DNA from: Ruminococcaceae bacterium BL-4
GTDB taxonomy: Bacteria > Bacillota > Clostridia > Oscillospirales > Acutalibacteraceae
DNA: 64,000 nt
NCBI GenBank assembly: GCA_902809935.1
Contig: LR778134.1
Coordinates: 1,922,001 to 1,986,000, forward strand
Direction: 5' to 3'
The translations under genes were made by a program, and so were the position numbers. Positions 27,233-30,068 of the stretch are shown here, piece after piece (position 1 is the first letter of the stretch; each line of letters begins with the position of its first letter). The notes beneath the pieces were generated by a model. That model made no database searches, was not told the DNA's origin, and worked only from the letters and a program-made list of their open reading frames with translations.

Positions 27233-27371
27233 GGAAAATTCACCTCATTTTTTATATTTGAATTTTATAAAAGTATGAGGATTTTGGAGATAGGATATAC
27301 ATAGAAAAGATAAAAATTGTGTCCGACAGCGTCGGGAGTTGCTTTATATAGCTTTATATAATTTATAATCT

Positions 27372-27401
27372 AATTATACAAAATGAATATTTTGTATAAT
27401 T
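27372..27401. promoter_or_regulatory. Perfect 13-bp-arm palindrome before the xerC-like gene
   Basis: AATTATACAAAAT (27372-27384) is the exact reverse complement of 27389-27401, with GAAT between. Trimmed to 28 bp it has 11-bp arms and a 6-bp centre (TGAATA), the geometry of dif sites. It overlaps the likely transcription start of a promoter with TTGCTT (27339-27344) and TATAAT (27364-27369), and ends just before the AAGGAGG ribosome site. It may be a Xer recombination site or an operator. There is no T run, so a terminator role is unlikely. Confidence 0.75.
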
Positions 27402-27414
27402 AAGGAGGGGAAAA

Positions 27415-28407
27415 ATGGATCAGCCAGCTTTTGATTATTCTGATGCACCGGATATCTTAAAACGCTTTTTAATTTATTTGGAAGCGATCAAAGGAAAATC
27501 TCCTAAAACCGTACAGGAATATTATTTCGATCTTCGTACTTTTTTTAGGTATTTAAAATCCAGCCGTGGACTGGTTCCATCAGAAACTCCATTTGAAAAA
27601 ATTTCAATTTCTGATATTGATCTTGAACTTCTAAAAACTGTTGATTTAACAGAAATTTATGAGTATTTTCATTATCTACAGACCACGCGGCATAACCATG
27701 CCGCAGCACGTTCTCGTAAAGTTAGCAGTTTGCACACCTTTTTTGAATATCTGACTAATAAAACCAACCAACTCAAAATCAATCCTGTTCAAGAATTAGA
27801 AACACCCAAAACACCAAAAAGACTTCCTAAATATTTGTCATTCGAACAAAGTATCGAACTACTGTCAGCAGTAAAAGGCCCTTATAAGGAACGCGATTAT
27901 TGTATTTTAACTTTATTTTTAAATTGTGGAATGCGGCTTTCTGAATTGGTTGGGCTAAACCTTACGGATGTCCGGCATAACAGCGGGACTTTAAGGATTA
28001 TTGGTAAAGGTAATAAAGAGAGAATTGTCTACCTAAATGAGGCCTGCCAGGAGGCCATCAATCGTTATATTGCGGTTCGTCCCAAAGATCATCTGATTGA
28101 TCGAAACGCACTTTTTATCAGTAAACAGCACAAACGAATTAGTCCTAAAACGGTACAAGCTTTAGTCAAAAAATATTTGGCGGATATTGATCTGGGTGGG
28201 CCTGGATACAGTGTACATAAGCTTCGCCATACAGCAGCGACTCTTATGTACCAAAAAGGGCATGTGGATATTCGAGTTTTAAAAGATATTTTAGGCCATG
28301 AAAATCTCGGAACTACAGAAATTTATACACATTTGTCCGATCAACAAATGGAACAGGCTGCAGAGTCAAACCCTTTAGCACATATTAAACCCAAATCAGA
28401 TAAATAA
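27415..28407 (+). CDS. Tyrosine recombinase, XerC-like
   Basis: A 330-aa integrase-family enzyme with an N-terminal SAM-like core-binding domain and a C-terminal catalytic domain. The active-site set is complete: Arg174 (NCGMRLSEL), Lys in the GKGNKER hairpin, His268 and Arg271 (HKLRH), His295 (LGHEN) and Tyr304 (EIYTHL). It is about 30 residues longer than typical XerC, mainly in the N-terminal half. It faces xerD across one bidirectional terminator and has a dif-like palindrome at its 5' end. It could be a XerC partner or a self-sufficient recombinase. Confidence 0.88.
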   Translation: MDQPAFDYSDAPDILKRFLIYLEAIKGKSPKTVQEYYFDLRTFFRYLKSSRGLVPSETPFEKISISDIDLELLKTVDLTEIYEYFHYLQTTRHNHAAARSRKVSSLHTFFEYLTNKTNQLKINPVQELETPKTPKRLPKYLSFEQSIELLSAVKGPYKERDYCILTLFLNCGMRLSELVGLNLTDVRHNSGTLRIIGKGNKERIVYLNEACQEAINRYIAVRPKDHLIDRNALFISKQHKRISPKTVQALVKKYLADIDLGGPGYSVHKLRHTAATLMYQKGHVDIRVLKDILGHENLGTTEIYTHLSDQQMEQAAESNPLAHIKPKSDK

Positions 28408-28421
28408 TTAGAATATAATAC

Positions 28422-28460
28422 AAAAAAATCAGAGACGGATTTTCCGTCTCTGATTTTTTT
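28422..28460. terminator. Bidirectional terminator between the two recombinase genes
   Basis: An 18-bp arm (28422-28439) pairs with 28443-28460 across a 3-nt loop, flanked by A7 and T7. It can end transcription from both sides. Confidence 0.93.
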
Positions 28461-28489: not shown

Positions 28490-29380
28490 TTATCCAAGCT
28501 TTGCACGAGGATGACAATGATTATAAACTTCTTTAAAATGATCGTTTAAAAGACGAACATAAACCTGTGTGGAAGAAATATCAGCATGACCAAGCATCTG
28601 CTGAATATCTTTCAATTCCGCACCATTTTCGAGTAAATGAAGTGCAAAAGAATGACGGAGCGTATATGGTGTAATCTCCTTTGTAATTCCGGCAGTTTCC
28701 GCATACCCTTTTACGATTTTCCAAAATCCCTGGCGTGTTAAACGATGCCCATTTAGATTCGTAAAAAGTGCCTGTCCGCCATCTGGAGAAATAATCATTC
28801 TACGGACACGAAAAATATAATCCGAAATGGCTGTAACTGCTTGCGCATAAACGGGAATGACACGCTCACTTTTCCCACTATGGCAACAGAGAACACCTGT
28901 ATGCAAATTAATATCTTCCACATTTAAGTCTACCAATTCTGAAGCACGGATCCCTGTGGCATAAAGCAGCTCCAACATCGCTTTATCGCGGCAGCCCTTT
29001 AGTTCCTTTGCATTCGGCTGCGACAAAAGCAATTCAATTTCCTCACCGCTTAAAATCTGGGGAAGCTTTTTTTCCGGTTTGTCGAGTTTAATCCCTTTCG
29101 CCGGATTTTCACTTACACTTCCATTGATCATCAGGAATTGGTAAAAGCAACGTGCAGAAGCAATATGACGAGTAATAGTAGCATTCGATTTTTTCGCATC
29201 TTTTAAGTATTTTACATACTTGTCTACTGTAGCGGAATCAGCATCAGTGGGAAGTGTTTTCTGCTTTTTTAAAAACTCCAAATAATTTTGTAAATCTCGT
29301 AGATAAGAATCCAAAGTGTTATTGGAGACTTTTTTTACTTTTACCAAGTAATTTTTAAATTCCGCACAGTAATCCTTCAT
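28490..29380 (-). CDS. xerD: Site-specific tyrosine recombinase XerD
   Basis: A 296-aa XerD-type recombinase for chromosome dimer resolution. Arg145 (TGIRASEL), Arg242 (LRHSF), His265 (LGHAD) and nucleophile Tyr274 (TQVYVRL) are visible, and the tail FKEVYNHCHPRA is XerD-like. The position normally His in the HxxR motif is Tyr239 (YTLR), an unusual substitution. The ATG at 29380 follows AAAGGAG by 10 bp, which rules out the GTG at 29389. It lies downstream of spoIIM, the standard Firmicutes order. Confidence 0.92.
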   Translation of the reverse strand: MKDYCAEFKNYLVKVKKVSNNTLDSYLRDLQNYLEFLKKQKTLPTDADSATVDKYVKYLKDAKKSNATITRHIASARCFYQFLMINGSVSENPAKGIKLDKPEKKLPQILSGEEIELLLSQPNAKELKGCRDKAMLELLYATGIRASELVDLNVEDINLHTGVLCCHSGKSERVIPVYAQAVTAISDYIFRVRRMIISPDGGQALFTNLNGHRLTRQGFWKIVKGYAETAGITKEITPYTLRHSFALHLLENGAELKDIQQMLGHADISSTQVYVRLLNDHFKEVYNHCHPRAKLG

Positions 29381-29426
29381 CCTTTTCACTCTCCTTTCTC
29401 TCTAAAAATCACAAATTCAAATTTAG

Positions 29427-30068
29427 TCATGCAAAAATAAATTTTCCGGAAAATCCAATGGATAATACCGTATCAAGTGCAGCGCCGATAATCGATAGTA
29501 ACAACACAATTCCAAATTGCTGAAAGTATGTCAGAAGTTCCGGTGGTGCTTCTTTTCCAAATAGTCCAGCAGAAGAAATCCTTTTAGAAAAGCTCCAAGA
29601 AAAATTAGAGGCAAAAAGGACAGACAAACAACTGAAAAAAGCACCCGGCAACAAAATAAGGCCATAAAATAAAAATCCCTGCATTCCGCGCATCAAATAC
29701 AAATATCCGCCTGTAATTCCAATTCCAATTCCTCTAAAAAAGGGAACCATCGGAATAAAAAAAGCTCCCCAAACGGAAAGTCCGCATAAAAAGCAGGCAA
29801 ATACAAATACAAATGAAGCAGAAATAGATGATGCAAATTTTTGCCCAGCAGTTTCTGTTGTTAAAGAAGAATAATTGCTAGCAAAAAGCTGTTCCACCTT
29901 TTGTAGATGAGAAACATCTAATTTGACTGACAACAACGCTCCACAGATGACTCCCGCAAGTAAAATAACGGCCCAAAGAGCTAAACGATGATACTTATGA
30001 AGTGCCTCTGAAATCACGCTGAGATTAATCCGATTTTTATTATAAGAAATAACGGCTTTCATGCACAT
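29427..30068 (-). CDS. spoIIM: Stage II sporulation protein M
   Basis: A 213-aa membrane protein with about five hydrophobic segments (for example LALWAVILLAGVICGALL and the GIGITGGYLYLMRG loop). It belongs to the SpoIIDMP complex that drives peptidoglycan remodelling and engulfment of the forespore. AGAAAGGA precedes the start; the ATG at 30062 two codons later is an alternative. A SigE-type promoter lies upstream. xerD follows in the same direction. Confidence 0.94.
   Translation of the reverse strand: MCMKAVISYNKNRINLSVISEALHKYHRLALWAVILLAGVICGALLSVKLDVSHLQKVEQLFASNYSSLTTETAGQKFASSISASFVFVFACFLCGLSVWGAFFIPMVPFFRGIGIGITGGYLYLMRGMQGFLFYGLILLPGAFFSCLSVLFASNFSWSFSKRISSAGLFGKEAPPELLTYFQQFGIVLLLSIIGAALDTVLSIGFSGKFIFA

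Follow-up and report, generated by a model that had tools for sequence, protein, structure and literature searches.

Among the Xer systems that resolve chromosome dimers, those known to use one recombinase are XerS/difSL, XerH/difH, archaeal XerA/dif and XerL/dif (PMC5357621, PMC2731167, PMC9765430). The XerS/difSL system of streptococci and lactococci resembles the locus described here in that one recombinase and its site form a module at the terminus (PMC5357621). In contrast, difSL is 31 bp long, and its arms (TTTTCTTGAAA / TTTCCGAAAA), which are unequal, enclose a centre of 11 bp (PMC5357621), whereas the arms found here are identical and surround a 6-bp centre; XerS also has 356 aa, against 330 aa for the recombinase here. 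XerH/difH of Campylobacter and Helicobacter shares the single recombinase, the inverted repeats, a variable central hexamer and the frequent linkage of site and gene (PMC2731167), but belongs to another phylum, and the solved XerH matches our recombinase weakly (64 bits). In the Legionellales, XerL is the single recombinase of one order and has a terminus-located, palindromic dif of its own, a system that had escaped homology searches (PMC9765430); the taxon is unrelated, and the likeness is taken from the published description. Archaeal XerA/dif likewise has a single recombinase, and a XerA-type structure (4a8e) is the closest solved relative of the protein studied here, although XerA is reportedly independent of FtsK (PMC5357621) and the genome here encodes an FtsK gamma domain. 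The XerCD/dif system (CodV/RipX in Bacillus) has the same 28-bp type of geometry, a location at the terminus, a 6-bp centre and the FtsK gamma domain, but its two half-sites differ from each other, in contrast to the symmetric arms described below.

We found no earlier description of this symmetric dif in Clostridia, Ruminococcaceae or Lachnospiraceae in the open-access papers searched. A 2011 genome-wide prediction used B. subtilis dif as the query and names two Clostridium failures (PMC3025954); its supplement may hold an earlier listing.

Here, we analyzed a window of 64,000 nucleotides (bases 1,922,001-1,986,000 of the single 2,335,857-bp contig of Ruminococcaceae bacterium BL-4). A palindrome in this window is very probably the chromosome dimer resolution site (dif), with the adjoining gene encoding its recombinase. 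This reading is based on the position of the palindrome, its uniqueness and conservation, the covariation of its arms, its linkage to the gene, the FtsK gamma domain and the catalytic residues of the recombinase, all of which were observed.

The palindrome and the adjoining recombinase gene

The features of the locus are collected in Table 1. The initial annotation had described a symmetric core of 28 bp, and the sequence bears this out with arms that are longer than claimed: two perfect 14-bp arms (27371-27384 and 27389-27402) flank the asymmetric centre GAAT. Recast around the hexamer TGAATA, the palindrome has 12-bp arms and thus a 12-6-12 geometry. A dif site has two inverted recombinase-binding arms around a centre of 6-8 bp, kept in relatives, and the palindrome conforms to this with its 6-bp centre. 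A recount of the match between the right arm and the E. coli XerD arm agrees with the earlier figure of 8 out of 11 bases, which is not the telling evidence. No match to the palindrome occurred in 100 shuffles of the sequence, and 10 shuffled windows contained no perfect inverted repeat whose arms reached 12 bp. The palindrome is single-copy in the complete chromosome (2,335,857-bp contig) when up to 3 mismatches are allowed in the search.

Table 1. Coordinates of the features at the dif-like locus, numbered within the window.
Feature	Position	Strand	Details
dif-like site	27371..27402	+	TAATTATACAAAAT-GAAT-ATTTTGTATAATTA, perfect inverted repeat with 14-bp arms around GAAT
Conserved core of dif-like site	27372-27401	+	AATTATACAAAA-TGAATA-TTTTGTATAATT
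One-sided purine/G-rich flank	27403..27411	+	AGGAGGGGA, the variant of the conserved N-AGGGGAG element at this locus
Xer-type tyrosine recombinase, 330 aa	27415..28407	+	catalytic R174 K198 H268 R271 H295 Y304
Terminator-like hairpin	28422..28460	.	arms of 18 bp and T/A tails; separates the convergent recombinase genes
Second Xer recombinase, XerD-like	28490..29389	-	TIGR02225 326 bits against a cut-off of 329.6; convergent with the first
spoIIM	29427..30068	-	neighbour of the xerD-like gene

The palindrome stops 12 bp short of the adjoining gene's ATG, and the open reading frame that had been noted to abut it encodes a full-length tyrosine recombinase. A second palindrome within the interval initially annotated, at 28422-28460, is an ordinary terminator-like hairpin between convergent genes.

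The 330-aa protein carries the catalytic R-K-H-R-H-Y residues together with Phage_integrase and SAM-like domains, as is characteristic of Xer tyrosine recombinases. Hardly any variation at the six catalytic residues is seen among 56 orthologues, and these group in a single clade, separate from the XerD-like proteins. The protein scores below the cut-offs of the models for XerC (TIGR02224, 216.7 bits against 335.15), XerS (NF003462, 160 against 267) and archaeal XerA (NF040815, 203.9 against 220), and below that of the XerD model too. Among solved structures, the XerA-type entry 4a8e (116 bits) and E. coli XerD are closest to it. Together with the XerD-like protein encoded next to it, it is the only strong Xer match in the genome, the remainder being weak and integrase-like. 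The genome further encodes an FtsK with a gamma domain (104.8 bits).

On present evidence, the locus is best read as a putative single-recombinase Xer/dif module, the lineage of which would be separate from XerS, XerH and XerL, with XerL compared by description and XerH by the 64-bit match. We infer that the recombinase binds, cleaves and recombines the palindrome under the control of FtsK. Two identical XerC-like subunits would bind the two identical arms, and two sites, contributed by the two halves of a chromosome dimer, would meet at the septum, probably via FtsK. Strand exchange across the 6-bp centre TGAATA would then yield two monomers. The unsymmetric centre, probably together with the one-sided G-rich element, would set the direction of an otherwise symmetric site.

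Terminus position and distribution in the Clostridia

The genome-wide GC skew was sampled at 20 places in addition to the window. The dnaA gene lies at 753.8-755.1 kb, which places its antipode at approximately 1,922 kb; the palindrome, at 1,949 kb, is 27 kb away from it. The cumulative skew of the window has its maximum at 27,494, about 100 bp from the palindrome. The samples have negative skew between 2.0 Mb and, passing the contig ends, 0.72 Mb, and positive skew between 0.84 and 1.94 Mb, except for one 20-kb sample at 1.56 Mb; bar this sample, the sign changes only near dnaA and at the palindrome. The skew turn proposed by the initial annotation is real, but was placed at 28.4 kb, whereas we compute 27.5 kb. 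Likewise, the proposed flip in gene orientation was found in the part inspected (20-37 kb), with genes on the + strand to the left of 28.4 kb and on the - strand to the right, but the orientation reverts to + past approximately 35.2 kb.

Relatives place the site similarly. In six complete relatives the recombinase gene is 44-56% of the chromosome away from dnaA. Of 37 stretches of approximately 20 kb around sites in other genomes, 27 have the skew maximum at most 1.1 kb from the site, where about 4 are expected, and one has the skew minimum there. Counting against the dif reading, several complete relatives (G004, G007, G017, G032) have their local skew maximum 8-15 kb off the site. A dif site is expected in one copy per chromosome at the terminus or skew switch, and the palindrome conforms to this.

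One family (f21; L246-L250, L109) has the centre TGCAAA in most of its sites, and for some of them (G212, G410) local skew is weak, flat or reversed, unlike in other families, which also counts against the dif reading.

The initial annotation had asked whether the palindrome stands near the orthologous gene in relatives. An orthologue of the recombinase is present in nearly all of the 40 relatives tried, and the core recurs close to it at protein identities of approximately 47-74%, at distances that vary but are mostly between ~40 and ~900 bp. With up to 3 mismatches, the core AATTATACAAAA-N6-TTTTGTATAATT was found in 135 of the 394 genomes of the order, nearly always as one copy, while the reversed control pattern had no match among the matches listed for these genomes. 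In the class Clostridia it occurs in 42 out of 150 good genomes, and many of the Clostridia that have it live in gut or soil. Genera with named matches include Acutalibacter, Anaeromassilibacillus, Caproicibacter, Butyricicoccus (with a site-bearing contig in Butyricicoccus pullicaecorum ET57), Agathobaculum, Ruminococcus, Scatolibacter and Mahella. Good matches to the recombinase are rare outside the class (4 of 78 genomes of the phylum); one of these four, G645, has a symmetric site approximately 90 bp from the recombinase gene.

A further difference from XerCD/dif lies in the canonical site. The search for a Bacillus-type dif elsewhere in the genome, suggested by the initial annotation as a test, was run: the canonical Firmicutes dif (ACTTCCTANAATATATATTATGTAAACT) is absent from this genome at up to 3 mismatches. 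A looser canonical pattern occurs in 9 out of 156 Clostridia genomes, about as often as its reversed control, and is thus at background level across the class. None of the three refuting conditions named by the initial annotation was therefore observed.

Arm symmetry, centre polarity and alternative roles

Lineages with changed arms alter both of them, as in AATTGCACAAAA...TTTTGTGCAATT and AACTCAACAAAA...TTTTGTTGAGTT; AATTGCGCATAA...TTATGCGCAATT, AATTATACGAAA...TTTCGTATAATT and others are further two-sided variants. Across 19 variants, 9 of the 12 pairs have changes on both sides (25 cells), none has changes on one side only, and 2 cells are unpaired, which is covariation far beyond the shuffled and slid controls. 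Some of the arm sequences were found through a pattern or through their symmetry, a bias towards symmetric sites that inflates this score. As a scan that requires symmetry is blind to asymmetric sites, the weight lies on the many distinct arms, each of them symmetric and each near the gene. Such symmetric change between lineages is what is expected when one protein binds both arms.

Alternatively, the XerC-like recombinase and the neighbouring XerD-like protein could act jointly, as an ordinary XerCD/dif system in which arm symmetry is incidental. The XerD-like gene is convergent beside the site here and in several relatives, and in four stretches (L149, L150, L168, L181) the site is near a XerD-like gene while no XerC-like orthologue was found in the stretch. 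Against joint action, the half-sites are identical where an XerCD/dif pair has two different ones, and the arms change in step, which is unexpected with two different binders. Moreover, four near-complete genomes (G016, G033, G036, G038) lack XerD and have the same kind of site. In two of these, G016 and G033 (96-98% complete), the symmetric site is present and the XerC-like recombinase is the sole Xer-family match. We therefore regard the joint reading as unlikely. The earlier proposal that one recombinase serves the site thus holds by comparison with relatives, but the window genome, unlike G016 and G033 with their single Xer protein, also encodes the XerD-like one next door. XerD would be dispensable for resolution at such sites, and in the window genome, where a mixed XerC/XerD complex may form, it may be a helper or a leftover.

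The initial annotation had also mentioned, as a secondary possibility, that the palindrome is an operator, through which the recombinase or another dimeric repressor would control the recombinase gene. The end of the palindrome 12 bp 5' of the start codon, the resemblance of one half to TATAAT, and the presence of the palindrome upstream of many orthologues are consistent with this. However, the distance between site and gene varies widely, and in two stretches (L080, L082) the orientation of the site is flipped relative to the recombinase gene. In addition, an operator could do without a polar centre and without a location at the terminus. In the family f13, which we take to be Butyricicoccaceae, the 10 kb on either side of the site hold no xer gene. 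Across 20-kb stretches from nine genomes of this family (G354, G283, G036, G245, G185, G407, G196, G336, G342), the skew maximum is approximately 25-130 bp from the site in seven, and approximately 440 and 790 bp from it in the other two. A site that stays at the skew maximum with no xer gene nearby must be more than the operator of that gene. An operator as the sole role of the palindrome is thus largely refuted, and we consider the operator reading very improbable.

The preferred reading, a dif site served by one recombinase, also has to account for the direction of a site with identical arms. Two polar features co-occur in most of 96 sites. If the flank is taken as the guide to orientation, most sites have a centre of the form T-N-A-A-N-A, with TGAATA in 29 out of 93, and N-AGGGGAG stands 3' of the right arm, such that a G-rich flank is present on exactly one side in 87 of the 96. 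In this genome AGGAGGGGA probably doubles as the Shine-Dalgarno sequence of the adjacent recombinase gene. That the flank is a mere Shine-Dalgarno sequence was considered and rejected: 43 of the 53 sites with no xer gene within 2 kb have the one-sided flank, and an open reading frame starts behind it in only 10 of those 43. As the flank is retained away from xer genes and mostly with no such start, it belongs to the site and not to a ribosome-binding site. We infer that it is an accessory element, which would dock FtsK or another protein, or order the strand exchange.

The E. coli KOPS consensus (GGGNAGGG) is rare and fully polar here, with 14 occurrences on the leading and none on the lagging strand in 444 kb (the window and samples L002-L021). 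KOPS was also considered for the flank itself; the G-rich strand of the flank points away from the core, and an ordinary KOPS role was therefore not adopted. Finally, the polar element at the skew switch might suggest a replication fork trap of the Tus/Ter or RTP type at the terminus, but as traps of this type require several oriented copies on either side, whereas the site is single-copy, linked to a recombinase gene and of the 12-6-12 geometry of Xer sites, this can be dismissed as extremely improbable.

Possible mobile copies and significance for the Clostridia

Copies of the arms were also observed in other settings. Ten phage contigs (L110-L113, L115-L120) have exact arm copies with no AGGGGAG flank and no xer gene nearby; the copies in L110 (8492-8521) and L116 (8207-8236) have structural or packaging genes on either side. 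These may be attachment or multimer-resolution sites that exploit the host Xer protein. A 16.6-kb contig of G303 (contig 62) has two flank-less copies 2.5 kb apart (L240:320-349 and L240:2858-2887), with a RelB/YafQ toxin-antitoxin pair directly behind the second; a third copy in G303, with the flank, is on a separate contig. By analogy, the pair in L240 resembles the dif modules of Acinetobacter plasmids. In the circular Microviridae genome MG945286, a match with 3 mismatches (L283:1178-1205), with the centre TGAATA and a partial flank, stands between VP4 and a peptidase gene; it could be a dif mimic, though a single match of this kind may be due to chance.

Two entries named 'Bacteriophage sp.', MT836776.1 (L282) and MT839262.1 (L281), were considered as phage carriers and rejected. 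MT839262 has extended similarity to chromosomal regions that surround the site and an open reading frame at the position of the xer gene, and MT836776 has the full site and flank near its end, both in common with MT839262. Since MT839262 is chromosome-like and MT836776 shares its site and flank, neither is evidence for phages. Judged by these matches, MT839262 appears to be a piece of the chromosome of a Clostridia host, and MT836776 may be another, or the end of a prophage.

Tentatively, much of the Clostridia may use one recombinase, distinct from XerS, XerH and XerL, on a symmetric dif, with AGGGGAG as a third part that would dock FtsK or another protein and set the direction and the order of strand exchange. 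The main reading would extend single-recombinase dif systems to a sizeable part of the Clostridia, with many gut genera among them (Acutalibacter, Butyricicoccus, Agathobaculum, Ruminococcus, Caproicibacter). In many genomes the site can serve to mark the terminus precisely, and its sequence can be used to find phages and mobile elements that make use of dif in these bacteria. As a symmetric site, it also offers a simple system for testing how Xer directionality is set.
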